From positions 14,978,340 to 15,042,339 of the forward strand of contig NC_087081.1 of NCBI RefSeq assembly GCF_026151205.1: a DNA stretch of 64,000 nt, read 5' to 3'. Numbering within the stretch: position 1 is the stretch's first letter; each line of letters begins with the position of its first letter. Shown here piece after piece: positions 11,466-64,000 of the stretch. The translations under genes were made by a program, and so were the position numbers. Source of the DNA: Bolinopsis microptera (taxonomy: Eukaryota > Ctenophora > Tentaculata > Lobata > Bolinopsidae). The notes below the pieces were generated by a model, which had not been told where the DNA came from, did not search any database, and was given only the letters and a program-made list of their open reading frames with translations.

Positions 11466-14400
11466 ATGGCTGACGGTAGACAGAGTATGAACAGTAGACA
11501 GCGATCAGATCACCTATCAATATCATCAGGGAGCTCTACTTGCTGTTCACATCTTTGTTCACAAGTCATCAGAACAGTCCTCTTCATCTTCAACTTCATA
11601 TTCTGGGTTAATTGATGGGGTTCATTTAGCATTTTTAATTAATACACTTAAATCTCATTTTAGAAATTTGTTGAAATTATGTTGATCAAAAGAAAGCAGA
11701 TCTAATATACATTACTTGATAAAACTGCGTTCTTTCACACTACACGACCGTGCACAAACATTCTTTGAACCTCTGCAAATTCTACCCCTTAAAACCTAAC
11801 CCCATACACCAAAACCCCAGGCACTAGGCGGCACATTACTAGTACTAGGAGTTTACCTGAAGATAGAATACAAGTCTCTAGACAACATCTCTGACGATAA
11901 CTTTGGAACATGGATGTACGGACTCATCATCGTCGGCTCCGTGATATTCGTGATATCATTCTTAGGGTGCTGTGGAACTCTGCTTCAATCTAATAACTTT
12001 TTAATGCTGGTTTGTTGTTGGGTTTCTCTCCTTTCTGGCATTCTCTGGTATTACTGTACACGGTACAGATGTTAGTCTGTCAATTAACTGCGTTGAAGAG
12101 TTTGTGATTTTGTTGTCGTATGGCTCTCCAACGGTAAATGTTGTAGGTTGTAGGGCTTGCCGCTTCAATTAGTGACATAGCTTTCTTGAAGCTTACATTA
12201 CATGTATGGAATTATTTGAGTACTAAAACATAACCTCCCCTCAGTATTTCATGCTCCTCATTTTGTTGGTCTTTGGCCAAATTGGATGTGGTATATGGGC
12301 CTATACCATCAGAGATAAGGTAATTTTCCGCGCTAATCTGTCAATGTACATTTTTAGTTAGCCTGACAAATTAGAATTATTCAGTAAATGACCTCATATA
12401 TTATGTCAGGGACTAATTTATGAAATATGAGACGACAATGTTAAAATTGATAAGCTAATGATTAATTTAATGGATGCTAATGTGGTAATTACAAATGTAC
12501 ATCCTCCTCAACCCTTCCATTATGTTAACGATAATTAGTGATTTGAGGACCTGCCAAGATGTAGGTAAACCTCTAATTTGACATTTATTACATTCAGATA
12601 TTTATCGACCTAGAAGAGGGGCTCGAGAGTGCAGTTGCTGAATACAATAACACTAAATCTAATGGAAATGAGTCTGTTATCAAAGATTCCATTGATTCCA
12701 TTCAGACGGTGGGTTTTTATTAAGTTATTTGTGAAACCAAATATTACAAATTAATCCCTATTCCTTATTCAATATTCATGATACAATGCAGCTGAATGAA
12801 ATATTTACATCTTTTCTCCTTTCATGAATTTCGTACCGTAATCTCCTCAGACATCCCCAAATAATCTCCTCAGATATCCAAATAACCCCAAATAATCTCC
12901 TCAGATATCCAAATAACCCCAAGTAATCTCCTCAGACATCCCCAAATAATCTCCCCAGATATCCAAATAACCCCAAATAATCTCCCCAGATATCCAAATA
13001 ACCCCAAATAATCTCCTCAGATATCCAAATAACCCCAAATAATCTCCCCAGATATCCAAATAACCCCAAATAATCTCCTCAAATATCCAAATAACCCCAA
13101 ATAATCTCCTCAGATATTCAAGTGTTGCGGACACAACGGCCGGGCTGACTATAACGGAGACCCTCCTCGGAGCTGCTGTCCTCGGACGGAACACGATCTA
13201 CCTCACTGTTCCGAGGAAACATATCATAATGTGGTAGGTTAAATAACACTATTATATTTAGCATTTAATAATCTTTAAATTTAATTGTGTTCCCAAGGTT
13301 TCAAGGCTCTAACTCATTCAGTAGCTGCGTAACAATAGCATAAAAAATGATCGAGATATTATCCTGATATCAGACAATTTGTAAAAAAGACTCATGAAGC
13401 TGCCACAGTGCCACGCTCCACTCCAATCAATTTGAGGTCTCACATTTTGTTGACAGATTCCGGAGGTCATACCTTTTAGCCCCTGTAAATATCAAATACC
13501 GTTCCCAACTGTCCTTGAGTTATAAAACTGATCACGTGATCACATGGGGACCTTGTTTTGGTACACCCTGTATTATGGGAATGTTTTACATCTGTCAGTA
13601 AATCTGTAACAAAATAATCGTGTTACTGTTAAATAATTACTATAAACTATTAACAAATTACTATTACGAATCATATTACTATTAACAAGCTAAATCTTAT
13701 AACTGTCGGCATCCAAAAATAACCTTGCATATTATTTACTTGTGGAATGTTATGTTATGTACTTATATATTGGGTATATTAACCCTCGATTGTTTTAGTA
13801 GTAACCCTTGATATTTTGTGAAACCACGGCGTTAAATTGGAAAAAGGGGCCGACTTACAGCCTCACTTCCTGCACAAGGTAGCTTCGTTTAGCAAGTGCG
13901 CTGCTGGGAAAGGCTTCCATTTGTTTCACATTTGCTGACACCTGTCCACGAGTTGTTAAAATGCTATAACACCAGAATTAATATGTAGCGCTAAACACAG
14001 TTGTGGTGTGCCAACAAGAGCTGCTGTGAAAAAGTGTGCCATATCCTGATTTGGTGTTAATTGAACCGTGTAGTTACTAATAAGGTTAGTAATAAGGTTA
14101 CCAATAAGGTTACTAATAAGGCTGATTGTTAAGGCGTGGTCCATGAATCTACTGCACACTTAGGCAGAAAACACGTGTCATATAATTATATTCCATCTTC
14201 TAAGTGCGTCATCTCAATAGAATTGGTCCGTATCCAAGTACAAAGTAATTAACTCAAGGGCTGTTAATTTACAACACGATAAATTTATCAAACTAATTAA
14301 TCCCAACTAAAATAGTTAGCGCCATTAATCCATACTCCAAAACGAAGAGTAGAAAACCCTCAAGAGCGCTCCAGAAACGAGTCCGATGTTATTAATTATT

Positions 14401-17400
14401 ACAGATCTTCAACAATTAGTCAGTTTCGAATCACCACACACTGGCTATAATTTGTCAGTTCAAGCGAGCATTCTCTTCCATCTTCTCCACAAAGCAATTA
14501 TACCAGCTGATTCTCTTTATTATTACTCTATTATCTGTAAATAGGAAGAGTACTGCCTCTCTGATCAGACACGTGGGCAGGTTGTAATGTCACGTGGGCA
14601 GGTTGTAATGTCACGTGGGTAGGTTGTAATGTTCGGAATGTCAGCAGTGACAGTTACACTCCTGGTCTTGTTGCACGTGTTCACTATTATACGGTGTGAT
14701 CTTGCCAGGATTTTTAACCTGGGCAGAAATAATACGTTTGTAAAAAGTAGGAAATATCAGAGAGTATGTTGGTCTAAATCAGATCTACACCAGTATAGTA
14801 GTGAATTCATCTCATTCTAATCAGACATTTAGCAATAACTTTGGTCTATACACTAAAATGTACATAAATGTACAGAAGAGTACAGAAGAGTACAGACTGT
14901 CTACAGGTAGTCACGTGACAATGTATGAACGTCACGTGACAGATAGAGAGAGTACCTTGTCACTCTGCTGTTGTCACCTTATTGTGACATGTCCTGTTGG
15001 CTGCTGAACAGAAGGACTGATGTAGTGCACTGACCTAGTGTTGGCAGTGCGCCACACATATTAGTAAGAGTACTCATCACGTGACGAGAAGGTATTATGT
15101 TGGACTATTGTTCAGATTTGGGCGGGAACTGTGTATCTTACTGTACTAAGGACTGGGCTTCTCTCTCTGAGAGACAGTTGTTGTGAAGAGTGAATATACT
15201 GACTACTGGGGGTACAGGAATAATACTTATAAGTAGGAGGTACTCAACTATACTACTGTTCTGGGTGTGCAGTGTACTTGTTATTTTAGGATTGTACTTG
15301 TTATTTTACTCTATCGTATCAAAGTAGTAAGTACTAAGGAACAACTCTCCGTTTAGAAGTTTAAATGTGAATATCATGTACATACTTGTCTAGGTACGGA
15401 CTACGGACAGTATCTATTGTTTTGCACCCGTGAGACTAAAGTGTGATACATCATACAGTATGTAATGCAAAATAGGACCCCTGTCACAATGCGACATGTC
15501 ACGTGATAATCACAACATATATCACGTGATAATGAGACCTGAGAACCTGCTAATCTACACTACTTCTCCAGTTCTCCTACTCTACAGTATTTCAATGAGA
15601 ACGTGACTACTGCCGTTTTCTGACAAAAGTGCTTAAGTAACATTTTGGAAATTTCGGGTTTTTTGGTCCAACTTTTGTTTTTGGGTCGAGAACTGTCCCT
15701 GAGGACCATTGGATAGATTCGCCGACCCCCCGAAACCCCCTTTTTGGAACCCCCTAAAATGCAAAATATGGTCATTTTTCTGAGAAAAGTGCTTAAGTAA
15801 CATTTTGGAAAACGGGTGCCGTTTATCTCAAAAACGGTGCCATTTCGGGAACTGAAAACGGTGACATTGTTTTTTACGCCCAAAACTGGCCTAGTGACGG
15901 TAATTTGGTGATCGTGGGTCTTTTGGCCTGGGAGAAAACAATTTATTTACGTCTTCAGTTTACAAATCAGTGAAACACAAACATACTATGCGGGGGGACT
16001 ACAGACCCCCTCAAAGTCCTTTACAACGTTACTGCCAGGTTACATAGCACTGAAAGTGAAAATCAATATCATCAGAAATTCAAATTCAAAGCAATGCCGT
16101 CATAGTATTACAAAGCCCCAAAACGCAACAATGCTTCAAACTCTATTATAACATGAGCATGCAAATAACATAAATCATCTAAAAACTGAAAAGGGTAAAA
16201 TAAAATAAGAATATAAACTAGGTCAACTAAATATTACTAATACAACAACTCATCTCAACAAAGAGATCCCTAGACACGCACGAAATAACTCAAATAATGT
16301 AAATAAGGTGAAAATAGGAACTCAATCTAGGTTCCAGGTACAACCACACGCGGGAAGCGTGAGCCGAAGAGAAAAGGCACATTACACTCAAGATTCAAGG
16401 TCCAAATTAATAAAAGCGATATATGAAGGACAAACAAATATGAACTACTCCAACATATCAACAGTCTACACATTCCTAATCAAATATTTTGATAACACGA
16501 TCGTAAATATCTACCCCAAATTTACACCAGATATTAAGTTTAGAATTGTAAAACTTCAAAAACTTTTTGCGCAAGGCAGCAGGAATAAAGCCTTGATTTA
16601 CAAGCTTCTTAACTAAGTCACGAATGTTACTATAAAATCCCTCTACTGTGGTATTAATGTTAGCGAATCTAACAAGCTGAGAAATAAATACCCCGTAAGA
16701 AAGATTCTTTGGGATATTCCCATCTAAAAAAGGATAAGAAATGACATTAAAACTATAGTCTTTCCGTTTATCATAAAGTGTTACTCTAAACTTGCCCCTG
16801 TAAATGCTAATACATAAATCTAGATAATTGCACTTACGCGGTGAAACATTAGTACAGTTTACAATCATCTCCGTAGGATAGATATCTCCTAAAATATTCC
16901 CTAATAGACCACTATCATTAAACGAAATAAGATCATCTTGATATCGAAATATATTTTCCAAACTCTTAAGTGCAACCTCATCACCATTTTCTATGAGTTT
17001 CTTGATATATTCATATTCAAACACATGTAAATAAGTATTAGCAATCTGAGGTCCTGCATTAGTCCCCATCGGGATCCCAATAACTTGCTTGTATATCTTG
17101 CCTTGATAAATAACAAAAGAATTATCGATCAAATAGTTAACACATTCTATAAGCTCATCTTTGCTGAAACTAGTCTTATTAGAACAACGTCCTTGGCTAA
17201 AATAAGCTCTTTTCGTATAAATATTAGGAATGATAAACGGCTTCTCTTTAAATCCAAAAACACGGTTGATAAACTTTAAAAGATTAGCTTTTAATTGTGT
17301 ATGAGGAATGGAAGTATAAAGAGTAGAGAAATCGTAAGTATTAATAGATTTAGAACCCATTCTCAAGTTATTAGCGTGAATAAAATCTATAACAGGCTCG

Positions 17401-20400
17401 TTATTGTCTATAACATAGAAATCATTTCTCGAGTGAAATTTATTATCATAAAGTGACCTATTTTTAGCTGAATGCAATAAAGATTTAAGACAAATTCCCA
17501 CATATTTAGAAAGTTGCTGTAAGCTACATGCAGCACCTGAAGTAATAAATCTAAAACCAACTGGCGATTTATGCTGTTTAGGGGTAATATATAAATACGG
17601 TAATTTACGATTTTCAGGTAATAATTTAATTCCATATTTTAACATAAACTTTTCATGTTCTTGGACAATGTCATCAACTGACCTGTCAATCATCTCGAAA
17701 TTATCTGAAGCCAGTTCTTCATGAATCTTCGAAATGTAAAACTTCTTACATACAATAGTAATATTATTAGCAGCTTTATCAGTAGGTACTAACACATATT
17801 TATCATGCAAAATATCAAGTTCATGTTTCACGTTCTCATCAGAAAGAGTAGTATTATAAGGAAAAGGTTTACAGTTCTCTAACTGTCTCTTTACTTGTTC
17901 TAATATAAGTGCTAAATTAATGTGCTTAATTTATGTCACTTAAGCACTTTTGTGAAAACGTGCTCGTTTTCTAACAAAAGTGCTTAAGTGCCATTATACC
18001 TTTAATTTAATGTTGATACTGCCAACTGAAACTATATAATCGGTACTAACAAATCTAAATTTTCACGGCGGATCGATTGGTGATGGTCATAAACTTCAGA
18101 AACGCTAGCTTCGCCGTCAAAATTGCCGATTTGTCAATGCAGAACGTTTCAAAATATACGTCATAATTTGCTTTAAAATTTTGTATTCTCTTATAAGTTG
18201 AGACTGGCGGGATTATCGACAGGCAAGGGAACATTACCAAAGAGATAGAAGCGATTTGCTTCACTGCTCCTTCTCTGTTGATATGGAGAAAGTTCTTTTA
18301 CTACCACACATGTAGTACAAGGAGTACAAGGAGGCGATTTTTACAAGACGCACATTTAACGAGACCTTCGCGAGGCTGGGGTCAGACGGAGCTCCTTTAG
18401 CGATTCTTTGGAATGAGTCAATCGCAGGAAAGATGAGAATGTGTCCTCGACTTGGATAAGGGCAATAAAAATTTTTGCCAGTTAGTTGGCAAGATTGGTA
18501 GCAGGGAGATCATTTTTTGGGCAGACAATTGTTCTGCTCAAAACAAGTGTTGGACTTTATTTACTGCCCTATGTTCATCAACAGCCCAGATGTTGACCTG
18601 GACAAGATAACGGTCAAGTATCCCCAGTATCTAAAGCCAGTGCACACCTTTATGAGTGCAGACTCATTCCACCATAAAGTGGAGTTGTCCATTAAACAAT
18701 CAGGTCAACTTCATGATTATAAGGACTTTGTTCAGGCAGTTGAACAGGTGGGTTTTGCGATAAGCATGAACTGCACATACTTTGAATCGTGGCCAAGGTC
18801 CTACGGAACAAGCAACTAAAAAACTAAAGATGTTAAAGTTGTAAGTTTCCAGCGTGGGTCTGTAGAAATGGAATGGAAAACAAATCATGACGAGGTTTCC
18901 TTTCATTTCATTTCATTTCTCAGACAAAAAGACGAGAGACTCATTTCCATAGGATGCAAAATAGCTTTCGCCCAGGAAGAGCCCCGGGGGATAGCTACTC
19001 CCAAAAAACAAGACATTATACGTAAACTGTGCAGGCTTATGGCCCCGAGTAGTAGGGTATTCTGGATGAACTTGCCTGATAGTACAGCTATATAACAGAT
19101 ATCTTAATCGAGTGTTTGACTAAAAATCATCTATTTCTTGTATTATTTACCATTTATTTATGTACAGCATTACTTACAATTATGTTACATTTTTCTTTGC
19201 CTCGCGTTACGATATCAATAATTCGCAAATCATTGGTCTTTATGAAGAAAGCCTCATCTGAGTTCTTAATTTAATTTCTAAAGAAAGCAACTTATTTATT
19301 ATTATCCCGTACTTTCACCAATCAACTCTTCGTTGAAATGCTGGTAGAATTTCGACTATTTTTTAATCCGCTGGGGAGAAGGGAGTGTTTTCGTGTTTTT
19401 AAACCACCACCAATCAATTTGTCGTAAAATTTTAGGTCAGAATGATCGCAGATAAAGTTCCCACTAATGTGGCTGTACTTAAGCACTTTTCTCAGAAAAC
19501 GAAATTTTCTATTTCAGCGTGTCCCCTATTTACAACCAATGTTTCATCACAACAGTTTTAGGCTAATTTTTCGTTTTACTTTCGATGACCAATGGTTTGA
19601 ACGGGTCATTTTTATCAGAACATGTAGTATTTGCCGATGTGACTGTACTTAAGCACTTTTCTCAGAAAACGAAATTTCAACTTTTCTATTCCAGCGTGTC
19701 CCCTATTTACAACCAATGTTTCATCACAACAGTTTTAGGCTAATTTTTCGTTTTACTTTCGATGACCAATGGTTTGAACGGGTCATTTTCATCAGAACAT
19801 GTAGTATTTGCCGATGTGACTGTACTTAAGCACTTTTCTAAGAAATTCAAACTATAATTTGTGATTTTGAGGCACTTTCCGAGAAGTTAGGATGATGAAA
19901 CTTTGTCAGAAGTCTCAAAAGTCGACAAAGTACCTTAGAAACATAGTGGGTGCAGTTTAAATTGGACAATAGCTAGCCCAGAGCAATTACAGAATTGAAA
20001 TCTTTAAGCTCAATTTACACAAAATGAACCTTGTGTTACTTAAGCACTTTTGTCAGAAAACGGCAGACTAGTAGGTGAGAGTAGTGAGAGTAGTACTGCA
20101 TTTGGAGATTACAGGAGAGTTACAGGAGTAGGATAGATTTTAGCGGGAAATATTCCTTTGTTATACTGAACGTGACAGTGTGACAGTGTAATAGTTACTG
20201 TATACCAGTTAACAGGTACTGACAGATCCCTGGCTGCAGTTCCCACATGAAAAAGCTATAATTATCGTTTAATTAGGTGATTATGTAATAATCATCTTGC
20301 TCGATTTGGAAAACTTCGTGAAGTTTATGGCTTGCCAAAAATCACTAATCTAATGCTAGTGAAATTTACAGAATAAATTTAAATCTAATAGGTCGGAAGT

Positions 20401-23400
20401 ACATGATCGTTGAGTTTTTGAAAAGAAATTATGGAAAGTCTTTTATACCGTAGCACAGATCAAATTGTTCAAGAAACACTTTTAGCACCTCAGTAGCCAA
20501 GTTTACCTTATCAAGTTGTAAAGTAACTCATAACTCCATCACATTAGTACTTAACCACTAACCACACTACCATCGTAAACGAGGATCATGTAATTCAGCT
20601 GCAGAACTTCGTGACCCAGAAATTTGACCTTCCATCACAGCTCAAACAGAAATATCAGATTTAAATCTAACGTTCAAACCTTTTTCTTAACCCCAATTTG
20701 AGCCGTAACGCTACCCAAAGTTTAAATACCTGAGTCTAGACTATAAATTAAAGCACTTAGTAAAACTCCCACTTCACCCTTCCAATGTTTCACGAAGTGA
20801 GAATTAATCTTGTCATATCCGAGTAAGTAAACCATCACTTGAACATGCCCATATATGGAATAACCAGCCTCTGATTGTATTATACGTACTCAATAATTCG
20901 TGTAAGGTGCCATGACAACTGTTGTCAGGGCGTATATTCCGACAGTTCGATTCCTAACTGTGACAGAAAATATGATATATATTACATAGTGTTTTCATAC
21001 GGTTACTGGGAATAGGGGTAATTTGATTTAGAAAGTCGTGATATTTTATGAATGTGATTTTGTTAGACTGAACAACTGAACATACGTTTTTTTGAAAATG
21101 AGTAAGTTATGCGCTGGATTTATGGTGGCTGTATTTATGGTGTAGCCGCACATAAAATAAATAAGGATCTTTTTAAAAATGTTTTCTTCCATACCTTCAC
21201 ACATTTCTGTCTATTGTCTTACAGACGGTAAAAATCGTCAGAAAATTTGTCAGAAAATGATAAAATAGCCTCGAATATCCAATATTCACATTACAGAGGA
21301 AAAACCAAATTGTAGTAGTGCCTGTGAGTCCTGCGACTCCCTTAATATTCAAATTATGAAACTGTATTCCTGTAACGTATCTCTAATATACCAGGTCATT
21401 GACAATTTGACACACATTTACTACGTATAGTCAATTCCGAGTATTTGTTGTGTCTTGTGGTTCTCAAGAGACAGATGCTAAAAGTCAGAAAGTACTCAAA
21501 GTGAACTTTGGAACGTTGAAAGATTCATCTGCGATTTCACTTTCACTAAGGCCCAGTTCTTCTTTTCACATAACAGTGAAAAGTACATATAGAGAGAAAT
21601 AATGATAAATTGGGTGGTTGCGATTTTTAGAGTAGATGGTGTCGGGTATCTTTATTCTTGGGATTTTATAATTCACATCCTTAATCTCTTAATGATAGTA
21701 CCTTGGTTTTGCCTCTCGATTATAGTAAAATGGGACCAGAAAAATAAGAAAACTATCTTTATTAACACAATTTACTTGCACTAATGGCGACGGTGCTACG
21801 GTTAAATGTATTAAATCATGTGTTAAATATGTTAAATTTGTTAGATGTGTTGAATTGTTGAGGTTGTCTAAATATGTTGCAGAGAACTTTAAAAGTATTA
21901 TACAATAACAGTGCAGTATTGGATGTCTCAAAAGTGGTGTTTCGTTACACACATTTCTGGGTTATTTCATGTTTTATCAGGTGCGGTCAGCTGTAACACA
22001 AGCTAATCTGTGATGAGTCATCTTGTGGAGTTTAAAATATTTAAACCAAGCAGATCAGACAATTACCAAACAGTTACCATACAGTTACTAAACAGTTACT
22101 AAACAGTAACTATATTAAACATCATGTTACATGATAAACAGAAGTGTTATAATATAATATATATATATATATATTATATACGCTAAACAAAAGTGTATTA
22201 TTTTAACAGTTAGACAGCCTAAAGCTATAAGTAGACGAGTATGTTTCTCACAGACTGTTCTGTGTTTCTCACAGACTGTTCTGTGTTTCTCACAGACTGT
22301 TCTGTGTTTCTCACAGACTGTTCTGACATACAGTAAGTCAGAACAAAACTTTTCATAAATTCAAAATGTTCATGACTTTATTCTAACTGATTCTTACAAA
22401 CCAATAATAATCTACAACTTTAGAACATTTTTCTAAACCTTCCTAAACAGCTTGCTACCCTACAGTCTACAGCTCTGCACAGATTTGTCGTAAAATACTA
22501 AATTTGTAATATTTCAGGGCTGCAAAGAAAAGATACCTCAGGATGTTACAAAGAACCTGTGGTTAATAGGCATAATATTAGGAGTCCTTCTATTCTTAGA
22601 GGTGAGACACATTATTTTATAATCTGAATTCAAACAAATACAAGAAGGTTACAACTAGCAACGTTTTAGGATCTAGCAGCTTGTACTTAACATGGATTGA
22701 GTACAACAATTTAAAAGTATTTAATAAAGTTGATATTGATTCATGGGTAACCCTGTAATGAGCACATAATTTGAATCCATTAATTTACTAATTTGGTACT
22801 GAAAGTTACAACATTTCTAAAGAAAAGTGGACTGTAATGTCTGGGAATAAGCTATATTCATCTTGTCGCGTCGTACAGAGGACAATAAAAGTAAAGCTCA
22901 ATAGCCATTATGGGACCCTTTATTGTGTATGTAACTTATATTAACCGTGTAGAATTCTATGGTCAATGCTCTGCTATTCACATAATCGTTATTTCATTCA
23001 ATAAAGTATGGTTATTCTTTGCTGTGTATAACTTAATATTAAGGTTATATCCATTATCCATATGGAGATTTGGAGAATGTAATTTGATCTACATTCTACT
23101 GGCTCTACCGCAATAGTTCTATAATTCAAAACTTTATATTAATGAGATTTGATCGTTCTGCAGAGACTATTCTAACAAGAAAAACAAGAAAGGGAGAGGG
23201 AAGAAATCCGTGATTCAATATTCACTATCCAGAAATCTTATAGTTTCGACATCTTGAAATATAAATTAACCACGTACAAAATATCAAAAATTTCGAGAAT
23301 TTTAAGCCGCCGCCCACCACCCGTGTTGTACATAGTTCCAACCACACAGTACATTTTGTTTTGGCAAGTTCAATTCTCGTCTTTTGTAAACTGTTTTCTT

Positions 23401-26400: not shown

Positions 26401-28749
26401 TTTAGTGTTGAAAGTATTGAAATGTCACGTGATTGAACGTAATATCACGTGATTTAACGTAATGCTGAATAAGTCTCAGATTGTGTTTTAACAGTACTAC
26501 TCACGACGGTGAGATTTGCAATCAAATTTTTGTAATCCCGTGAGTGAGAGTAAGGGCGTCAGAAAGCTAATCCACTATACAAAGTTAACAGTGGGACTAT
26601 TTAAAACATCAGCCGTAGTTTTCAAAGTACATATTATTATATACAATGTGGATTGTGGATACCAGTGGAGGGAAGCGTAAGCATATTTTTTAGACACGTG
26701 ACTGTGATTTTGGAGTTTGATTCGTCAATACTGGAGGCTGATTGGGTAATCAATGTGCCAGATAAAATGTGTTTAATCCCTCACCAGTATCCAGATATAA
26801 TACTATTATTATTATACTCATATTATTACAATGAAGCATGACAACTGCTGCCAATATAGAGTCCTTAATTTTTGTCTGCATTTTTTGCAATTCACACGAC
26901 GTACTTACCTAACGATAATAATAGTAGTAATTTTATAAATATCTTATGGGGGGGTGCCAACCTCATGAATACCTATTATCCTCTCCGATTTCAAAATAGG
27001 TATTCGTATTTATGGTTATTTAAATATTTATGAGGTTGCCCCCCCCCCCCCATCACCCTATATTATTAACTGTGTTAGCTAAACTCCATCAATCTGATAA
27101 CCCTTATAACACTGATAGTGCAGTTATAATCTAACATTGAGTATTGCTTTGAATTACTGCAATTCGGCGATAATTTGACCTAATTACATGTTTTTCGCGG
27201 TTATTTGACATCTTCTCGCCCTATAAATCAATCTAGTTGTGTTACTGGCACTGCTGCAGTATATTCCCTTAAAAGGCAATGACATGATTTGTTAAACGCA
27301 GCCGAACTCTACTTTTACGTCAGTGTAATTTAAAAACTTAAACACCGTATGAAGTATCAACATGATATAATAATCAATATTTATATTTGATTACCTTTTA
27401 AAGTTTTAATAAGCTTTTAGAATTTAGAGCGACAAAATTCCAGCTTCAAATTTTGACAGCTGAGAGGCGAGAGCCGCCCAAAAATCACCGCAAAAAATTA
27501 TAAAAATTGCACTAATCAGGTTAATTGGCCTCTAAATTGAGAAACAGATTAGCACATACTATAGCGGCGAGTAGTAATAACAGCTAGGAATTTTTACCGT
27601 ATTGGTTTTCAGCGTGTGTGCCTGAAAATTGCACAGTTTTCTGATAGTAATTATTTATAATTCTACCGAATTTTTACGAGTCAGCTAGAAAAGATAGCGC
27701 CTCTCTTTTGAAGTACAGCAAAGTGCTAAAAGTGCTAAAAGACTTGTTCAGAACACATGCAACAAGGGTTAACCTGTGACAAACAGCCTCTATGTTACAC
27801 CACCAGTCACCTCCTCAACTACATATTAACAAGTTTTTCCGACAAAACAACAAACATGTCTAAAACTTATGTCCAGCAGTTCGACCTTATGATACTGTGT
27901 CCAGATAAATCTAACCTTGCAGTTCCTTACAGTCACCTTACAGTCACCTTACAGTCACCTTACAGTCACCTTACAGTCACCTTACAGTCACCTTGCAGTT
28001 CCTTACTATCATGTGTTGGAACTATTAATTGGAAAGTCACTGTTGTTATTATGATATAATACACCAAATGTGACGCACGCTAATTTACCGGTAAAGCACT
28101 AGAAGGTCAGATGAAGTGGGCGTGGTCTGTGAAGCTGAGAAGTTTGTACATCTGGCTTTAGTAACTGCCTGAATAACAAGAGTTGTGGTAAAACTGTGAC
28201 TGTGACGTATCCTGTGACGTGTCATGTGACGTATCATGTGACGTGTCATCCATCAGCAATCCTGACTAAAGTCCTGGCAGAATGTTCTAATTTTGTATTC
28301 TCCTACTGAAATTAAAAACACTGCATAAAAGTAAAACTCAATTAGGCAAAGCTTATTCAATTTTCTTTTATTTAACGAGCACTAATCAGTACTAAGTATT
28401 GCTAATCAGTGTACTAATTAGTACTAAGTATTGCTAATCAGTATACTAATTAGTACTAAGTATTGCTAATCAGTGTACTAATTAGTACTAAGTATTGCTA
28501 ATCAGTGTACTAATTAGTACTTAGTATTGCTAATCAGTGTACTAATTAGTACTAAGTATTGCTGATCAGTGTACTAATTAGTACCTTTATCTCGCTCAGA
28601 TAGTGTGTGGGGTGGCGTACCTTATCATGAAGTATAACAGCGAGGACTCCTATACCCTCATAAACCGGAGGTCCTCCGCGGAAAAGTACCCTGCTAAGTA
28701 CTACTGCACACAACCCTGTAAGAAACAGACCAACTTGGTCTACTGTTGA
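11466..28749 (+). CDS. Tetraspanin (7 exons)
   Basis: Exons 11466-11606, 11821-12009, 12245-12319, 12598-12708, 13114-13233, 22518-22601 and 28600-28749 join in frame through GT/AG junctions to 289 residues. Every intron is phase 0. TM1 is at about 34-58 (FIFNFIFW), TM2 ends in LGCCGTLLQ, and TM3 is exon 3. The large extracellular loop carries the diagnostic CCG at 176-178, then RSCCP, HC and GC; TM4 spans the exon 6/7 junction (LFLE/IVCGVAYL). It should organise membrane microdomains with partner proteins; which member it is cannot be told. The tail is Cys-containing. Introns 5 (9.3 kb) and 6 (6.0 kb) are full of mobile DNA. Exons 5 and 7 are immediately preceded by tandem repeats. The start has good context (AAGAAATGG). 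Confidence 0.88.
12841..13113. repeat. 31/23-bp minisatellite containing the tetraspanin exon 5 splice acceptor
   Basis: Nine units upstream of the true junction, most 31 bp and two 23 bp. Each contains TCTCC(T/C)CAG followed by ATATCCAAA or ACATCCCC. The true junction, TCTCCTCAG at 13105-13113 then ATATTCAAG, is the last, slightly different copy. Eight of nine upstream copies keep the AG; one has AA. Confidence 0.9.
14572..14633. repeat. 21-bp tandem repeat (x3) with CACGTG
   Basis: Three copies of CACGTGGGCAGGTTGTAATG within tetraspanin intron 5. Each unit has a CACGTG E-box-like palindrome; function unknown. Confidence 0.8.
16476..17930 (-). CDS. Reverse transcriptase-like ORF (Penelope-like), N-terminally incomplete
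   Basis: A 484-codon open frame bounded upstream by a stop at 17931-17933. No ATG lies near its upstream end, so the N terminus is missing or elsewhere. Order of motifs: YVLVPTDKAANN near the start, PKQHKSPVGFRFI, motif A YDFSTLYTSIPH with its Asp, GIPMGTNAGPQIANTYL, and motif C FRYQDDLISF with the catalytic Asp pair. Then DKRKDYSFN...SYGVFISQLVRFA...KKFLKFYN. This arrangement occurs in Penelope-like and related RT proteins of cnidarians and molluscs. No GIY-YIG endonuclease domain is visible. Catalytic residues are intact and there is no internal stop, so it has been open recently. Terminal-repeat-like motifs of the host TIR element flank it on both sides. Confidence 0.75.
   Translation of the reverse strand: MKHINLALILEQVKRQLENCKPFPYNTTLSDENVKHELDILHDKYVLVPTDKAANNITIVCKKFYISKIHEELASDNFEMIDRSVDDIVQEHEKFMLKYGIKLLPENRKLPYLYITPKQHKSPVGFRFITSGAACSLQQLSKYVGICLKSLLHSAKNRSLYDNKFHSRNDFYVIDNNEPVIDFIHANNLRMGSKSINTYDFSTLYTSIPHTQLKANLLKFINRVFGFKEKPFIIPNIYTKRAYFSQGRCSNKTSFSKDELIECVNYLIDNSFVIYQGKIYKQVIGIPMGTNAGPQIANTYLHVFEYEYIKKLIENGDEVALKSLENIFRYQDDLISFNDSGLLGNILGDIYPTEMIVNCTNVSPRKCNYLDLCISIYRGKFRVTLYDKRKDYSFNVISYPFLDGNIPKNLSYGVFISQLVRFANINTTVEGFYSNIRDLVKKLVNQGFIPAALRKKFLKFYNSKLNIWCKFGVDIYDRVIKIFD
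17936..17992. repeat. Palindrome of the TIR motif
   Basis: ACTTAAGCACTTTTGT and its inverted copy ACAAAAGTGCTTAAGT lie head to head with a 20-base centre, immediately upstream of the RT frame. It looks like two element ends abutting. Confidence 0.8.
18260..19095 (+). pseudogene. Decayed transposase (W-x-D-N-C-S-x-Q-N-K type)
   Basis: Pieces of one protein lie in order in shifting frames: SVDMEKVLLLPHM, then a TAG stop, then KEAIFTRRTFNETF, DGAPLAILWNESIAG, REIIFWADNCSAQNK, NSPDVDLDKITVKY, HTFMSADSFHHKVE, and after more shifts RGIATPKKQDIIRKLC and FWMNLPDS. The WADNCSAQNK and HTFMSADSFHH motifs occur in transposon-encoded proteins of aquatic invertebrates (DUF7869-like); I do not know the catalytic assignment. 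At least three frame changes and one stop show that it is dead. Confidence 0.6.
19475..19855. repeat. About 172-bp tandem repeat (2.2 copies) in the TIR element
   Basis: Units begin TGTACTTAAGCACTTTTCTC at about 19475, 19645 and 19822 and end ...GTAGTATTTGCCGATGTGAC. Each starts with a copy of the element's terminal motif. Confidence 0.8.
22150..22184. repeat. AT microsatellite
   Basis: TATATATA tract in tetraspanin intron 5, about 340 bp upstream of exon 6. Confidence 0.8.
22243..22326. repeat. 21-bp minisatellite (x4) with acceptor-like TTTCTCACAG
   Basis: Four exact units TGTTTCTCACAGACTGTTC plus two bases, about 190 bp upstream of tetraspanin exon 6. Each unit has a pyrimidine run ending in CAG that resembles a 3' splice site. 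Confidence 0.85.
23705..23860. repeat. GC-rich minisatellites
   Basis: Two adjoining short arrays in tetraspanin intron 6: copies of CAGCCCCTGTA and then copies of GGCCGGGGTATGCTGCACAC. They contrast sharply with the AT-rich intron. Confidence 0.8.
24259..25275 (-). CDS. Retroelement C-terminal ORF: zinc knuckle plus PD-(D/E)XK nuclease-like domain
   Basis: An intact 338-residue frame in tetraspanin intron 6, antisense to the host gene. It reads SSWLTVLPLKSYGF and KGEFRDSLLLRYN, then a Cys/His cluster (CVCGAKMDINHALNC), then RHNSVRD. Next come HPDVRARGFYRPG and YFDIKF, which fit the PD...DxK signature of restriction-like endonucleases, and near the end RLYNERILNVEHGSF and LVYSVTGGSGPE. Zinc knuckle followed by PD-(D/E)XK is the order at the C terminus of R2-type LINE proteins; similar stand-alone ORFs are abundant in cnidarian and bivalve genomes. 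The reverse transcriptase half is missing here, so this is probably a 5'-truncated copy. The frame has no internal stop. Exact family uncertain. Confidence 0.65.
   Translation of the reverse strand: MNRCEAYYEGVREWIEDIHYSMEVTKSLVKAMAGIETDIDHDSESLKEILKVRTEKHELEYTLICNESSDRSTRAINQAREKGSSSWLTVLPLKSYGFTLNKGEFRDSLLLRYNKDLPRLPQSCVCGAKMDINHALNCPRGGYIIIRHNSVRDFIAKQLSTVCKDVECEPHLQTLDGETFSTSTTLTGDNAHPDVRARGFYRPGQNSYFDIKFLNPNSESYLSSSTEKIYERAETQKRRLYNERILNVEHGSFCPLVYSVTGGSGPEARTFFRLLCEKISYKTQQNYSDVVNFLRCKLSFIIRKLVLLCIRGTRSSVNSVDKSCESDFEFACFVLKLS
26948..27051. mobile_element. 104-bp palindromic MITE
   Basis: Ends GGGGGGGTGCCAACCTCATG and the inverted CATAAATA...GAGGTTGCCCC, flanked by AT on both sides. The unequal G and C runs at the ends may vary in length. 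Lies in tetraspanin intron 6. Confidence 0.65.
27924..27992. repeat. 11-bp tandem repeat (x6)
   Basis: Six copies of CTTACAGTCAC in tetraspanin intron 6. Confidence 0.85.
28201..28248. repeat. 12-bp repeat with four TGACGT sites
   Basis: TGACGT, the core of a CREB/ATF site, occurs at 28203, 28215, 28227 and 28239, a 12-base period, 350 bp upstream of tetraspanin exon 7. Could be an intronic regulatory cluster or a plain microsatellite. Confidence 0.6.
28384..28585. repeat. 32-bp minisatellite next to the tetraspanin exon 7 acceptor
   Basis: About six copies of a 32-bp unit containing TACTAAG, TGCTAATCAG and TACTAATTAG. The array ends 14 bases before the acceptor AG at 28598-28599. TACTAAT and TGCTAAT resemble branch-point sequences. 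Confidence 0.88.
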
Positions 28750-30555
28750 TCTACTTGATCTACTGTGGACCAGCTAGTTGCTATGTGGTTGCTATGTGTC
28801 CTGCTCTCCTGCGCCAGCTCCGCAGATATTGTAGATATAGTCTTGAATGCAGCATTGAATCATATTGTGAACAGCAGTTGTCTGTTTGTTGAAGCAGAAA
28901 TATCTTGTTGAAGTTTTCATGCAACATTTTCGTTATCTTTCTGACCGGGTTTTGACCCTTGTGCCGCCTGTCTATAATTAATGTTGCACGTGCTACTCGA
29001 ACTTTGCTACATCCTCATTTGTACGTAATAGATTGCTAGTTTCTGTCTTGCTAAATTCCAGCTTGCTAGTCTCTGGCTTGCGTTTGATAACCTTCAGTTT
29101 TACACAGATCAAGTCTAAAATGCTTTGTAAACTTTGAATTGTATGATGGCTAAAAGCATACCCTGTAAATCACACATTAATAAACCAGTTATTTTGTGAG
29201 TAAGATGTTGGGATTTTGAATGAAATGTTTTCTTGCCCGGTATGTGAAGCAAGTATTAGTATATCTGTCTCGTCACTATGTCAGACCAATCATATAGCTC
29301 TTTGTTGATCATGTGACTATCTACTGTGTCAATCTTAGGTTTATATAACCTCTGTCATATCAGTTATATGTATGATTGGGTTCGTGTCCAATGTCACTAT
29401 CTTGCTGCGCTACAAGACGCTACCGAACAATCTCTGTTCTTTATTTTGATTTCATCGATAATTGATTTAGTTTCACCAGATAGTTAAATCAATGTAACAT
29501 AAGTTCTGACTTAGTTACAAGCAATTATAAACTTCCTTGGTATTTTGGTGAAATATATGGTGACGCCGAACATGAAATTTGTCGAGTTTCGCAAATTCGA
29601 CTTCACTTTTACTTTTACTTTTGGTTTTTTAAGAACTTCCCTTGTGTTAATTTGATTGGTTCACTAGGCTTAAAGCAAGCCACCTTTCACTTCTCCTTAT
29701 GGCTGATGTTTCATACATAACAAGGAAATAATTATTTGTAACGCTTTACAATATGTGATGAATGATAATTTGCTGTACCAGTTCATGTATAAATAATATA
29801 CCACAACAATTGAAATGTACTGGTGTACAGAATTATTTCCTATATTAGCATACTGTACTGCTACTTGTTTAATAGAAATTAACAGTACACAGTTTTGTTA
29901 AAAACTGTCTAGCCGAAAGACTAATAGTCAAACTAAACACTTGAAAAACACACTCACTTCCCTTGGATTAGTGTATACCTACCATGTGAATTATACTCCT
30001 CTTGCAGCGCTTAATTACTTGTACATGAATATTCAGAATCCTCTGATCGTTATCCACAGACGACCACACTAATTATATGCAGTGGTCGGTGTGAAAACTG
30101 TGGTGTATTGCTTACCTGTCAGATCCACAGATATTTGTAAGATATTATCCACCACAGCGCACTTCCAATAGTCCCCAATTAATGACAAAATGTTTGCAAG
30201 GAAACATCCTCTACACCAATAGGGAGCAGCCCTGATAGCACGTGACACAGAATATAATGCACCAGGATATTCTCATACAAAGCAACAATTGGCACTTGTG
30301 CTACTTTATGGATGAGCGCATGTTTCTAAGCACCTTCTGCTTTATTATGGTGATGGTGCCTGACGCCTGTAGCCACACATTCCATCGTTTAACCTATTGT
30401 AATTTATATGGAGGGGAGTATTTTGGTATTTTTGGCTCATATTATTGGAACTATTTTTTAAAACGTTCGCAGATAGATACCGAAAATGTTTATCTTCAAG
30501 GGCGCGTTGAGAGCACGTTTCCTTGATTTTTGTAGTGGATTTGTAGTGCTTTTCA
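28750..30555. other. Downstream of tetraspanin, non-coding
   Basis: The probable tetraspanin 3' UTR is here, with an AATAAA at 29179-29184 about 430 bp after the stop. The remaining 1.4 kb is AT-rich with no gene or element that I can support. Confidence 0.5.
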
Positions 30556-33500: not shown

Positions 33501-33621
33501 ATCTTTACCCCTGTAGTGCTTTTATGTTCCGGGGTAGGTGGGACATGTTTTAGTTTAAAAATGGGTTCTGCCTGTCCCAAACCATCATAAAAATCAAGTT
33601 TCGACCTCTCAACCCACTCGG
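30556..33621 (+). repeat. 184/185-bp satellite, array 1
   Basis: About 16.6 head-to-tail units beginning CCCCTGTAGTGCTTTTATG, each with TTCCGGGGTAGGTGGGACAT and CCCAGGGGCCACGCCC. Units are nearly identical; the commonest difference is AAAATCC versus AAATCC, giving 185 or 184 bp. The same sequence occurs in reverse orientation from 34846. Confidence 0.95.
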
Positions 33622-42470: not shown

Positions 42471-43319
42471 TACTGCGATGTACCCATGTTCCAAATTTAT
42501 GGATTCATCTACTGTCTTCTGGGCGCGTTGATGGAAAACGTGATACATTTTGGTTTAACATTTTGCGCGCAACACGTACTCATTTTCACGCTGCGCGCGA
42601 CCGTAATGCACGTGCTATTTTGTGATCTTATGATTTTACTCACTTGCCGCTACTGTAACAGTTTTCATTGCATGGTGTTGTCAGTGTACGGTGGTAATAA
42701 TTCTGACGTTTTATCACACGTGTGTAAAAACTATCTAACTTTCCACGAACTGTGAATTGTTAAAAGCTTAGATTCGTTTCTTCCTTTTATTTTTAAAGGT
42801 AAGATCATAATTAGTGACGCTAACTGCTAAAAAGCCCTGACTTCGCCAAAACAACCCCATTGTTAACACTAACAGCTATAACAGTTGCCATTTATTGACA
42901 TCAATATATTCCGGCCTGTCAGCTGAATGCTACCAGACGGTCTGAGAGACAATATTTAATCTTTCACTTTTACTTTCACTTTCACTTTCCCGTTTACTTT
43001 CACTTTCATTTTAACTGTACTATTCCCAGGTTGCGGGCCTGTCAGCAGGATGTTATCTGAGGGTTCAAATCGTGAAGGCGGACATCAACAGATGGCAAAA
43101 CTCCTATAGTTAGTTTTACCACGTGACAAAATCGTGAAAATGTGATTCGTGAGTCGTGTGTGTGTTAGCAAAGATATCCGTATGATGTGAAGCACGTTCG
43201 TTACTCGTGAGAAGCACGGTCGATCAGACGTCCCTTCCTCCCCGTCCGCGTCCTCCTCTCCTTCTCCCCTCCTTCTCCCTCTTCTTCTCACTCTCCTCTT
43301 CTCCTCCCCCTCCCCAATA
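42471..43319. other. Non-coding stretch
   Basis: No gene recognised. It contains short CACTTT runs at about 42960-43010 and a CT-rich tract at 43225-43315. Confidence 0.5.
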
Positions 43320-49819: not shown

Positions 49820-52800
49820 TTACTTGAAAGAGCTGAAAATCTGCTGTTTCAAAGCCGTTATGTGGGACATCTTCTCAGCCGTCCGGGCCACAGAATCTTC
49901 GTAAGATTCCTGAGAGAGTAACCTTTCTTTGGAAGAGTTGTTGGTGGCTAGCGCCATTTGCTGTCTGTGCTGAAGGGCTTGTTTCAGAGTGTCAAACGTT
50001 ATCTCCTCTTGCAAGCTTATCTGAAAATGAGCTTCAAATAGTACAAGTGCTTCAACCACAATTTGTTGAGTGTGATTCGACAGAGAAAAAAAGAGAACTG
50101 TAAGTTTAAGAATACACTTGATCGAGTGAAGGAGGCGCAAGTGTTTTGGCGTGTGGCCGCAAGAAATTTACTTGATTGGTTAAACTCTACTTGCCTGGAT
50201 GATAACATTAGAGAGTAAATATTTTTGGAACGGGTGGAAATTACCTGTACATCCGACACCCTGGCATCCAGCAAGCTGACTCGAAGTGATTTCACCGATT
50301 CTGGTGTCCTTGGTATTGCTGCTCCTGAAGTTAAACATCGGGTTATCTTTAAAATATATTACCAAGAGTGATTATTACAGCCATAACAATGGATTCAGTA
50401 CAGGAAAATTCATCATCCAAGGTCATCATACAGCAAGAATGTGAATTCCTAACATATAATACGCGTTACAAAGAAACAGACCCAAGATCAACCCAAAGAA
50501 AATGTAGCAAGAATGATGCAAAGCTTTTTCGCAGTTTAGCATCTAAACTCTAAGGCAAATATTTCACCCAGAAATGGGACATTTTTTCCAGACATTTAGG
50601 ATAAATTAATACGGTTATAAACATTTTCCCACATAATTCATTCTACGTTGATAAAGTTTGAATAGCTTTTTAGTTGATATGTAAGTTTAACCAGCAAGCA
50701 ATTTGGCCGCCCAGCTATTACAATATTTCTTACCGTCCATAGAATTCTCACTGCTCTCTAGAGGGTTCGTTACTTAATTAAATAGTTTAATAATTTAATA
50801 GTTTAACGTTGAAAACTGATCATCGATGATTAGTTAAGCTATGTCATATATTAATAAAAAACAAATAATTCTCCAATTTTAATTTTTTCCATTTTCCAAA
50901 AATAATGAGGAGTTATTAAGTATTTTGTGCTACTTTTTTACATTGATTTTGTATCCATAATAAAATATATTTGAAGTAAACATTGGCCAGTAAGCAAAGC
51001 TGGTCCCCAATAAAAAAGAAAATAAACTTACTTTTGTAGTGATAAGGATCAGATAGCCTGTCCACGTTCATGCCCTGTTGGTTTAGACATTCAGCCACGA
51101 CGGTAGCATCAAACATAAAAGAGGAAACATTTTCTTCCGCAGTTTCATTATCCAGCTCACTGATTGAGAGGTTACAGTTATATTTTATTTAAAAAATTTA
51201 AGGTTTTGAAGATAAAGTCTGCACTCTGTCTACAAAATTGCAAAAATATGGGCTCGGTTTTTTTGTCTATAAAAAATTTGATAGAAAAAATGAATCGAAT
51301 AATCAGATTATTCGATAGAGCGTATGTAATTATTTACAAAACTGAAGTATACCTGTCTTTGTCGATTGTAGAGAAAGCAACCTGAGGAAGTAAATACGGC
51401 TTATCACTCTGCCTCTTTCGTATTATATTCGTTATGTGCTGATCTAAAGCTTCGTTTCTTGAATACCTACAGGATTATAACGTCGTAAAAGTAAGGTGTA
51501 AGCGATGAAAGTGAAAGTGAAAGTGAGAGTTAAACGTATTATGTTGACAACTGACGGAAGGTCACGTGACACGTTACCCTCCGATCCCCATCAAAACCCA
51601 ACTCCACTGTGAGGTCAACTTTATCAAAAAACACGTTACCGTGAGGCGAAGACGAGGAAAGCAGCGACCAGCCCATGCAAGATGTTGACGTTATTTCTGG
51701 AGCTAGAGCAGGCTTCATCCTGTAGACCAAATGCCATGTGTATCAGCTCTATCAGCACCTGAGAAACATGGCTATAATTATCTGAGAAACATGGGTATTA
51801 ACTCTATCAGCACCTGAGAAACATGGCTATAATTATCTGAGAAACATGTGTATTAACTCTGTCAGCACCTGAGAAACATGGCTATAATTATCTGAGAAAC
51901 ATGGGTATCAGCTCTATCAGCACCTGAGAAACATGGCTATAATTATCTGAGAAACATGTGTATCAGCTCTATCAGCACCTGCTATCAGCAACCTGAGAAA
52001 CATGGCTATAATTATCTGAGAAACATGGGTATCAGCTCTATCAGCACCTGAGAAACATGGCTATAATTATCTGAGAAACATGTGTATCAGCTCTATCAGC
52101 ACCTGAGAAACATGGCTATAATTATCTGAGAAACATGGGTATCAGCTCTATCAGCACCTGAGAAACATGGCTATAATTATCTGAGAAACATGTGTATCAG
52201 CTCTATCAGCACCTGAGAAACATGGCTATAATTATCTGAGAAACATGGGTATTAACTCTATCAGCACCTGAGAAACATGGCTATAATTATCTGAGAAACA
52301 TGGGTATCAGCTCTATCAGCACCTGAGAAACATGGCTATAATTATCTGAGAAACATGGGTATCAGCTCTATCAGCACCTGAGAAACATGGCTATAATTAT
52401 CTGAGAAACATGGGTATCAGCTCTATCAGCACCTGAGAAACACGGCTATAATTATCTGAGAAACATGGGTATTAACTCTGTCAGCATCTGAGAAACATGG
52501 CTATAATTATCTGAGAAACATGTGTATCAGCTCTATCAGCACCTGAGAAACATGGCTATAATTATCTGAGAAACATGGCTATAATTATCTGAGAAACATG
52601 GCTATAATTATCTGAGAAACATGTGTATCAGCTCTATCAGCTCCATGAGATAAAGGCATGACGTTTTGAGTTCGTAAATTACACATGTTTTGAATCGAAG
52701 TAAAACGACATTCAAATACACAGTGAAAGTGAAAGTTAAAAAGTGAAACTTTCACAAGACCCAACCTCATCAACAGGAACCTCAAGACACCAAAGAACTG

Positions 52801-58816: not shown

Positions 58817-58827
58817 CTTGCCAAACG

Positions 58828-61800: not shown

Positions 61801-64000
61801 TGTGAGCTTTGATCCGGTCAAGTCCGGTTCCGGAGGTTCCAACCGGATTACAACCCTTTTTGATGATGTCTTCTATGTCGGGGACAGTTATTATGTCGTC
61901 TTCAGCTACTCCTGCAATGAAAAATATCATGAACTTTATAATGTTCGTCAACATAGTGCCTCAATAAATTCTAAACCGATAACTAAAATCTTCAATTGAT
62001 CGCACACATTTAATAATAGTAAGAGATAATTGTACTAAGAGATAACTTACCAGCGATATACGAGGACAAATTAACAGCAGTTGTGTTGAGCGCGGCGAAA
62101 GTGTCCGAGAGTTCGGACATGGTAGTGGTCAGAACCTCGTCTATCTCAGCAGGGAAGGAGAAGGGTTTTCCTGTGGAAAGTCGAAATTAGTTAATTTTAG
62201 TGGGAAGTCGGAATCGAACTGCAAAATCACTACGTACCGATAAATCTTATTCAGATTTAAAGTATTCGATTAATCCGCCCTATATCATAGATTTATTCAC
62301 ACCGCGCACCATCAACAGGGACAAAGTTCTTGATACGTCGCATAGTTTTAAGGAAATCATTGCAGTGTTGTTTTGTCCCGTTCATCTTCTCGATCTGAAC
62401 GGAACCCTCCTGAACCCGAGATAGCGAGGTTGTTATCTTGTTAGCACAGGCGATAAGGCCCTCACAGGTGTGCTTCATTATCATGAGGTAGTCCGACAGG
62501 GCCTCTCTGCAGGACGGCTGAAAAACAGAAATTATTACTAAAATATTATATAAACTTGTTATCAAACCAAACACACATCTCTCAAAACAAAGCATTAGTA
62601 TTATTAAAATTATAAATCTGTAATTTAAAGAAGATCACGTGATCTGACACTACCTTGATATCGGGGAAGTGAGTGTTGCTGAGAGCCAGGAACTGAGCGG
62701 CCGACTGTTTAACAGGATCCACAGTTACACTCTCGTCCAGGGAGCTCTTCTCTAGGTGGGTCCGGAACACTGACAACATGGACATGTGCGGTCCCAGATC
62801 ACTTGCCAGTCTTCCTAGCCTGGAGAATGTGGAACAGTGGTAAAGAGTGGTAAAGAGTGGTAAAGATTGGCAAAAAGTCAAAAAGTGGTAGAAAGTGGTA
62901 AAGAGTGGTAAAGAGTAGTAAAGAGTGGTAAAGAGTGGTAAAGAGTGCTATGAAGTAGTAAAGTGTGGTAAAGAGTGGTAAAGAGTGGTAAAGAGTGGTA
63001 AAGAGTGGTAAAGAGTGGTAAAGAGTGGTAAAGAGTGGTAAAGAGTGGTAAAGAGTGGTAAAGAGTGGTAAAGAGTGGTAAAGAGTGGTAAAGAGTGCTA
63101 TGAAGTAGTAAAGTGTGGTAAAGAGTGGTAAAGAGTGGTAAAGAGTGGTAAAGAGTGGTAAAGAGTGGTAAAGAGTGGTAAAGAGTGGAAAAGTGAACAG
63201 GTTTCAAATTTTGGTCATCTCCTGGCTCTCCTCAATTAGAAATTAGAATATGTACTTATAAAAGCTTTTAATTGCACCACTATGATAAGATAGGGAACTA
63301 ATAAGACCAGACAATAAATTGAGATCCTGGAGAGTCTCATGAGACTGATAAACAGCGAACCTCTCCAGGACCTCATATTTCTTCAGACAATAAATTGTTA
63401 GACCTGTATCTTTAGGAAAAGTAGACTGGCCTGCCTTCCTACTTTCCTAACAGTTTAATCAAGTAGGAAACAACAGTTTAAAACCAAATATGTCTGATGT
63501 TGTTAAATTTATACAATATGTTTGACAGCCAGGAAGGATCTTATCCCACTTATAAGTTTAGCCTTATTTAGAGGACCAGTGTCCAGTAAGGATTTATGTT
63601 TCAGATTAGATAAATTGCTCTTTTGAATAAAACAATGAGTTTTTATCCGGTACAGTTAAACTATGCACGTCGAACTTGAATTTATATTATGCAATAATAT
63701 GATATTATGCAATAATATGATATTATGCAATATATGCATGAAACGCACTCTGAACGTAAAGTTACCTCAAAAATGTGTCAGGATCACATTGTTTGATACA
63801 TCTCTCGAAGGTAGTAACTGCGACTCTAAAGTACGCCATCTCAATAACAATCCCGGCAGCATACACAGCCTTGTCACACTGGAGCGAGGTTAAGGAGGCA
63901 CCAGAGAGGAGGTCTGTTAGTTTGAGGTGTTTTGAGGTTACTCGGCCGATAACCTCACTTGTTACGCCGAGTTTGTTTAGTAGTAGGATCTGGATGGAGA
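58828..64000 (-). CDS. DCTN1: Dynactin subunit 1 (p150-Glued), C-terminal part, 5' end beyond the window
   Basis: Ten exons join in frame to 641 C-terminal residues: 64000(partial)-63766, 62819-62654, 62517-62310, 62170-62051, 61911-61598, 61345-61187, 60981-60766, 59723-59514, 59284-59187 and 59029-58828. Diagnostic stretches are the coiled coil ending KTISDKDRQ followed by FEETMDHLQEDIEALESEK and LKTKLEQASKR, then KTKLAALPPL and TKVIDITKK. The C terminus (MFGKITIPYAKES...LLDKNELARLNSTLL) matches the end of animal p150. p150 joins dynein to cargo and microtubules; the CAP-Gly and first coiled coil would lie to the right. The intron between the partial exon and 62819 ends in a long 10-bp array directly before its acceptor. 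Confidence 0.92.
60237..60279. repeat. Perfect 19-bp hairpin in a DCTN1 intron
   Basis: GCCCTTGTGATTGTCATTT and its exact complement are separated by five bases (GTTAT). A second, smaller hairpin (CTGTATCTT...AAGATACAG, 60213-60236) abuts it. Both lie in the intron between exons 60981-60766 and 59723-59514. Confidence 0.75.
62828..63189. repeat. 10-bp minisatellite (about 36 copies) at a DCTN1 splice acceptor
   Basis: GGTAAAGAGT repeated with a few variant units (GTGCTATGAA, GTAGTAAAGT, GTGGTAAAGT). On the transcript strand it reads ACTCTTTACC, pyrimidine-rich and free of AG. It stops about 8 bases before the acceptor at 62820-62821. A higher-order duplication is visible: the variant block GTGCTATGAAGTAGTAAAGT appears twice, about 150 bp apart. 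Confidence 0.92.
63683..63735. repeat. About 20-bp AT-rich tandem repeat
   Basis: Two and a half copies of TATTATGCAATAATATGA, 30 bp from the donor site of the last partial DCTN1 exon. Confidence 0.7.

Follow-up and report, generated by a model that had tools for sequence, protein, structure and literature searches.

Minisatellite arrays at splice junctions of both kinds in the ctenophore Bolinopsis microptera

Arrays and genes of the window

The DNA considered here is a window of 64,000 nucleotides from Bolinopsis microptera (contig NC_087081.1, positions 14,978,340 to 15,042,339 of the forward strand), in which minisatellites lie in the introns of a tetraspanin gene, EFR3 and DCTN1. A preliminary description of the window had claimed that such arrays concentrate at 3' splice sites and had proposed either a process at the pyrimidine/AG boundary or intron growth by tandem duplication as their source. 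In a sample of 247 introns from elsewhere in the genome, we found that arrays cluster at splice junctions of both kinds, donors as well as acceptors, above what randomly placed seeds would give. The arrays that had been named (tetraspanin exons 5 and 7 and upstream of exon 6, EFR3 and DCTN1) exist as described, both by Tandem Repeats Finder (TRF) and in the raw sequence. The gene names are backed by Pfam matches to tetraspanin (E 1.6e-8), to EFR3_ARM on the first EFR3 exon (E 2.6e-35) and to kelch, and by weak Dynactin matches on both exons flanking the DCTN1 array (E 7e-5 and 0.036, both under the curated cut-off). The features are as follows.

12839 to 13121, forward strand: 31-bp minisatellite over the acceptor of tetraspanin exon 5 (TRF, sequence, copies in register)
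13114 to 13233, forward strand: tetraspanin exon 5, beginning IFKCCGHNG (gene model; Pfam tetraspanin on the exon upstream)
22242 to 22325, forward strand: four perfect 21-bp copies of TGTTTCTCACAGACTGTTCTG (TRF, sequence, gene model)
28381 to 28584, forward strand: 32-bp array before the acceptor of tetraspanin exon 7 (TRF, sequence, gene model)
51640 to 51758, reverse strand: EFR3 exon downstream of the array (gene model; acceptor score; Pfam EFR3_ARM on the first exon)
51735 to 52650, reverse strand: 55-bp array of EFR3 (TRF, sequence, gene model, copies in register)
62836 to 63193, reverse strand: (CTTTACCACT)n array of 36 copies in DCTN1 (TRF, sequence, gene model)
63684 to 63738, reverse strand: short array in the DCTN1 intron (TRF, sequence, gene model)

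At tetraspanin exon 5, the 31-bp TRF row covers 12855-13121, with related copies from 12839, and passes the junction by 8 nt. Most of its units carry the acceptor and first exon bases as CTCCTCAG or CTCCCCAG, followed by ATATCC, and among its 8 inner acceptor copies 6 come within 1 bit of the functional acceptor's score. A higher-scoring 85-bp TRF row, which was the one used for the tally, passes the junction by 1 nt and was not scored as spanning. The 21-bp copies lie in the interior of their intron, ∼190 bp upstream of exon 6 (start 22518), and include no junction, and the 32-bp array ends 15 bp before exon 7 (start 28600). A long tetraspanin intron also holds, at 16479-17930 on the reverse strand, an open frame of 484 aa whose resemblance to polymerases is weak and under the cut-offs (Pfam RVT_1 E 0.0014, RdRP_1 E 0.0007).

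Read in gene direction, the EFR3 array (52650-51735) overruns the preferred acceptor, with exon start 51758, by 24 nt. Its unit is TTTCTCAG and then, in the last copy, GTGCTGATAGAGCTGATACACATG, which with this start comprises the acceptor and 24 exon nt (VLIELIHM); 12 of 14 inner acceptor copies are within 1 bit of the functional score. Another in-frame AG, 39 nt further on, would put the exon start at 51719, and if that were the real start the array would end ∼15 bp upstream of the exon. We prefer 51758, and with it an array that spans the acceptor, because of the splice scores (5.0 at 51758, −0.2 at 51719), the gene model and what we take to be the human EFR3 sequence; a PDB search for EFR3, meant to settle this acceptor of exon 3, gave no hit, and Pfam did not separate the two candidates. 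In DCTN1, 16 bp separate the end of the (CTTTACCACT)n array (63193-62836) from the acceptor of exon 62819-62654, and the short array (63738-63684) starts ∼27 bp into the intron past the donor at 63766.

Exon ends in the window come from a small gene finder whose training set was the kinesin and myosin genes of the sample, and the tally covers 22 modelled introns, ambiguous ones being excluded. At a TRF score of at least 80, an array lay within 25 bp of the acceptor in 4 of the 22 introns and within 25 bp of the donor in none. Two arrays ended within 10 bp of acceptors against 0.9 under random placement (p = 0.20), and none started within 10 bp of donors against 0.8, so that in the window alone arrays at acceptors are not above chance. 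Lowering the score to at least 50 brought one donor within 10 bp and left the acceptors within 25 bp at 4.

Arrays at junctions in a wider sample

The wider sample was taken from the genome of 264.65 Mb (232 contigs) as loci of the kinesin, myosin, dynein heavy chain and CCT families, picked by exon matches and blind to repeats; it represents these four families rather than the whole genome. Only part of the listed matching loci was taken, small or scattered ones being omitted, and 54 were modelled, each aligned to the profile of its own family by a splice-aware dynamic programme and built without RNA. Of these loci, 47 were used, the exclusions being duplicates (K05, K42, M10), intronless seeds (K44, K45) and poor alignments (M11, D58). 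From 314 called introns 247 were retained (149.7 kb of intron in 47 genes) and 67 dropped for weak splice scores or a length <60. Arrays were defined by a TRF score of at least 80 and a period of at least 9, and the null was a unit-long seed equally likely at any point of the intron and its flanking exon, at no cost for overlapping the exon. An earlier first pass had covered 179 introns under a stricter acceptor filter, without dynein and CCT, with one count made on unmerged TRF rows.

The 247 introns contain 59 arrays; a donor is spanned in 9 cases and an acceptor in 4, and 28 arrays are interior (>25 bp inside the intron); a further 9 start within 25 bp of a donor and 9 end within 25 bp of an acceptor without spanning it. 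The 13 spanning arrays compare with 4.8 expected under even seeding (2.4 at donors and 2.4 at acceptors; P = 0.0015), a ratio of 2.7 with a gene-bootstrap interval of 1.4-4.2. They are spread over 10 of the 47 genes, none being found among the 4 CCT genes, and with the richest gene removed 10 remain against 4.2 expected. Among arrays scoring at least 200 the excess is larger, with 7 donors and 4 acceptors spanned against 1.3 each (11 versus 2.6; P = 6e-5), and array starts within 10 bp of donors number 15 against 5.3 when whole arrays are placed at random (p<0.001). Introns with a junction-spanning array thus make up 13 of 247, or 5.3% (95% interval 2.8-8.8%). A further 16 arrays sit in the 67 dropped introns; a donor is spanned by one of them and an acceptor by another, and adding the 16 gives 10 donors and 5 acceptors spanned among 75 arrays.

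The claimed concentration at splice sites therefore stands as clustering at junctions of both kinds, marginal for acceptors taken alone, and its restriction to acceptors does not. Donors equalled or exceeded acceptors by spanning (9 versus 4, p = 0.27), within 10 bp (15 versus 9, p = 0.31) and within 25 bp (18 versus 13, p = 0.47), so that none of the three distance measures gave any sign of an acceptor preference in the 247 introns, and the donor counts contradict seeding at acceptors only. We regard it as extremely improbable that the pyrimidine tract/AG boundary itself generates repeats at 3' splice sites: the window does speak for this, with its four acceptors and no donors and a rate of acceptors with an array within 25 bp nominally above that of the sample (4/22 versus 13/247, Fisher p = 0.04), but the window had been chosen since arrays had caught notice there and was thus selected for the very feature under test. 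Its acceptor pattern is best read as the product of small numbers and this selection. A mechanism peculiar to that boundary is superfluous, because donors are at least as affected as acceptors, and it would leave the donor arrays unexplained.

The anatomy of the arrays agrees with the other proposal, intron growth by tandem duplication. In all 13 spanning arrays the copies are in register and the units include the junction, a point that the preliminary description had proposed to test. Such units occur in kinesin, myosin and dynein genes, with an exon part of 7-53 nt (K40 included); donor units consist of 7-53 exon nt, the GT and a stretch of intron after it that ranges from nothing to some tens of bases, and acceptor units of the intron end and 7-33 exon nt. 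Five of them are listed here.

Donor array of kinesin K09: 30 exon nt, 25 copies
Donor array of kinesin K12: 26 exon nt, 52 copies by TRF
Donor array of dynein D49: 53 exon nt, 12 copies
Acceptor array of kinesin K09: 29 exon nt, 26 copies by TRF
Acceptor array of myosin M9: 33 exon nt, 3 copies

By protein homology the exons join at the outermost copy, which is the first of the donors or the last of the acceptors. At 8 of 9 spanned donors and at 6 of 6 acceptors (4 in the sample and 2 in the window), the scores of most or all inner copies fall within 1 bit of that of the site in use, as in K12 (49 of 51 donors) and K09 (24 of 24 donors and 27 of 28 acceptors); D57 is the exception, as no inner copy of its donor passed the strict context filter. 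At 8 of 9 donors and 4 of 6 acceptors the length of the unit is not divisible by 3, and use of an inner copy would therefore usually shift the frame. A function through protein diversity was dismissed on these unit lengths.

Origin and persistence of the arrays

We consider it highly probable that these arrays are minisatellites that copy junctions, known from amphioxus as "mirages", and that they expand where the outermost splice site stays in use. A tandem duplication of ∼20-75 bp at the DNA level, seeded by slippage or misaligned repair, would by chance take in an exon end and the adjacent splice site. The spliceosome would then keep the outermost copy, whether first donor or last acceptor, and the inner copies would be ignored in the RNA; with the outermost copy in use the mRNA would be unchanged, the other copies would count as intron and the array would be free to expand, persisting by tolerance rather than function. 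The sequence itself shows units made of exon plus splice site at both intron ends, a homology-placed junction that is outermost, and two near-identical gene copies that differ as one unit to three, with a 10-bp direct repeat around the unit in the single-copy form. No array scoring at least 80 lies wholly within the 47,481 bp of modelled coding sequence, from which exonic duplications appear to be removed.

The gene copies in question are the myosins M9 and M10, which are near-identical (coding sequences differing at 8 of 966 sites), lie on one contig and are either paralogues or unmerged haplotypes. The acceptor segment is present three times in M9 and once in M10, where the single segment is flanked by a direct repeat of the 10-mer CAACTATTTC, one in the intron and one in the exon, 69 bp apart from start to start. 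This repeat is just what slippage or misaligned repair would use, and we infer that seeding of this sort occurs and that the single-copy state of M10 is the older one. In two other near-identical gene pairs, no array among up to three best per intron touches a junction.

Several results weigh against the arrays being tolerated copies of this kind. Expansion by tolerance, in a purely neutral version, predicts ∼4.8 spanning arrays rather than the 13 observed, so either something beyond tolerance is required or the null of even seeding is too simple. At a score of at least 50 the excess weakens (13 versus 8.0, P = 0.06), and acceptors taken alone are marginal (4 spanned versus 2.4; 9 ends within 10 bp versus 5.1, p = 0.05). 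The one-versus-three pair was seen at the single locus of M9 and M10, and extended microhomology is not the rule: of 36 high-identity arrays with two copies, 25 reach only −1 to 2 bp beyond two units. In recent paralogues of human segmental duplications, moreover, boundary repeats are reported to yield alternative transcripts and novel introns (PMC2812944).

The excess itself raises the possibility that junctions, donors above all, are hot spots of tandem duplication, for example through breaks or nicks linked to transcription or R-loops. The 2.7-fold surplus over even seeding and the crowding of array starts within 10 bp of donors argue for such targeting, which may operate alongside tolerance; however, the same surplus could arise from selection or a wrong null, and 28 of the 59 arrays sit more than 25 bp inside their introns. 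We find targeted mutation conceivable though somewhat doubtful. Equally tentative is the wider proposition that tandem duplication in this lineage strikes preferentially at splice junctions, with the result that about one intron in 20 has a junction-copying minisatellite and the spliceosome chooses the outermost of up to ∼50 near-identical donors or ∼28 near-identical acceptors. If it is true, the genome offers natural tests throughout, which would favour a strong rule of position (exon definition) over choice by site strength or first-AG scanning.

Selection might instead maintain the arrays, if repeated splice sites served as a reservoir or strengthened recognition of the exon end. Inner copies do retain strong splice motifs, and over 11 pooled arrays variation is slightly lower in the motif than elsewhere in the unit (24 of 1398 versus 171 of 5492 positions), but the copies are homogenised, and positions and copies are therefore not independent. 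Contrary cases also occur, the K12 motif being more variable than the exon part (7 of 459 versus 2 of 1172) and 8 of 61 motif cells varying in the tetraspanin array, and use of an inner site would, as noted, usually change the frame. Evidence for selection on the inner motifs is thus weak and mixed, and we judge its role improbable.

The arrays could also be traces of intron birth rather than of later growth. In Rogers-type intron gain, an internal tandem duplication copies a segment with splice signals, here an exonic AG/GT. Some units do carry both an acceptor and a GT (K11, EFR3), and for 7 of the 13 affected introns no other member of the family that was kept and is not a duplicate has an intron at the matching position. 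The other 6, however, match a kept intron of such a member in position and phase, against a background of 91 of 247 kept introns, and none of these partners has a spanning array, which indicates that there the intron is older than the array. Admitting duplicates and weak intron calls as partners gives 7 of 13 affected introns and 111 of 247 overall. Myosin M10, too, has the intron without the array. New introns are reported to have arisen from boundary repeats in human segmental duplications (PMC2812944), yet intron birth is unsupported as the general source of the present arrays, and we hold it to be very improbable.

Known counterparts, and other repeats and genes

Introners are dispersed intron-generating elements that are closely tied to splice sites. 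The present repeats share that tie but differ from introners in that their units hold the host gene's own exon. Rogers-type gain resembles the arrays in being a tandem duplication with splice signals, whereas the unit here covers one junction and not the whole intron, and 6 of the 13 affected introns are shared with a family member.

The closest counterparts are the mirages of amphioxus. There, tandem units lie over the 5' or 3' exon-intron boundary in a few genes, measure 10-72 bp in Adh3 and ∼150-160 bp in globin, and form many copies with AG/GT signals (PMC3087553, which cites Canestro et al. 2002 and also discusses Rogers-type gain). In BflGb6 the haplotypes have 6 and 3 units, mRNA splicing is normal despite the array, and somatic length instability is described for Adh3 (PMC3087553). 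The likeness extends to the unit, which joins exon sequence to the adjoining splice site (in 13 of the 59 arrays of the sample), and to the involvement of either boundary, here 9 donors and 4 acceptors. The difference of three versus one between M9 and M10 would match that between haplotypes if the two were unmerged haplotypes and not paralogues. Unlike in amphioxus, the host is a ctenophore, the arrays were counted in 13 of 247 introns and not in a handful of genes, they reach 52 copies by TRF, and both intron ends were compared with a null; protein homology places the junction here at the outermost copy.

Human segmental duplications contain minisatellites with ∼30-bp units at exon-intron boundaries, with 27 intron modifications reported (PMC2812944). 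Their boundary location is alike, and the coding junction here, in conserved motor proteins and others, appears by contrast unchanged. The genome of the ctenophore Hormiphora is 13% tandem repeats by TRF, and the text consulted does not mention junction arrays (PMC8527503). Judged by titles, with subscription papers mostly outside reach, we found no published work on junction arrays in ctenophores.

The arrays have the anatomy by which mirages are defined, and they are apparently a known kind of repeat that is common here. What is new is the ctenophore lineage, the frequency (5.3% of introns), the test against a null and the gene pair with one and three copies. Exon-boundary duplication, so far described in amphioxus and in segmental duplications of the human genome, is thereby extended to an animal lineage that is probably very distant, and junction arrays would offer a route for intron lengthening. 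If ∼5% of introns carry them, they amount to many natural experiments on splice-site choice in which only the outermost site keeps the protein intact.

Among the other repeats of the window, a 185-bp unit forms two arrays that run in opposite directions (30555-33621 and 34845-39478), are 99.8% identical over 3 kb and lie ∼1.2 kb apart; together they resemble a foldback-type element whose inverted arms consist of tandem repeats. A second inverted pair (39944-41067 and 41447-42506) has a unit of ∼331 bp and is 94% identical over 958 bp. Outside the window, the kinesin copy K05 (L005) differs from its sister at 1 of 873 coding sites, and its intron at 993-2055 (gene coordinates) is 1062 bp long versus 122; the long intron holds TAAGACAACAT-type repeat arrays in opposite orientations and is likewise foldback-like. 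Positions 1-1788 of the window are 298 uninterrupted copies of CCTGAC with 100% matches, at an internal position on contig C10.

At 4534-4792, a 75-bp (25-aa) in-frame tandem repeat lies near the end of an open frame that has LDL-receptor A domains and a weak similarity, below cut-off, to rhodopsin-type G-protein-coupled receptors. On contig C12, a cluster of ionotropic glutamate receptor genes with open frames of 765-949 aa lies at ∼11.78-11.81 Mb. In PDB the best match for three of four pieces was ML032222a (E 8e-32 to 7e-31), presumably from the ctenophore Mnemiopsis, given its ML prefix, and the fourth was nearest to delta-1 receptors (5e-19); in the one piece with fully listed matches, NMDA receptors came next after ML032222a, at ∼2e-13.

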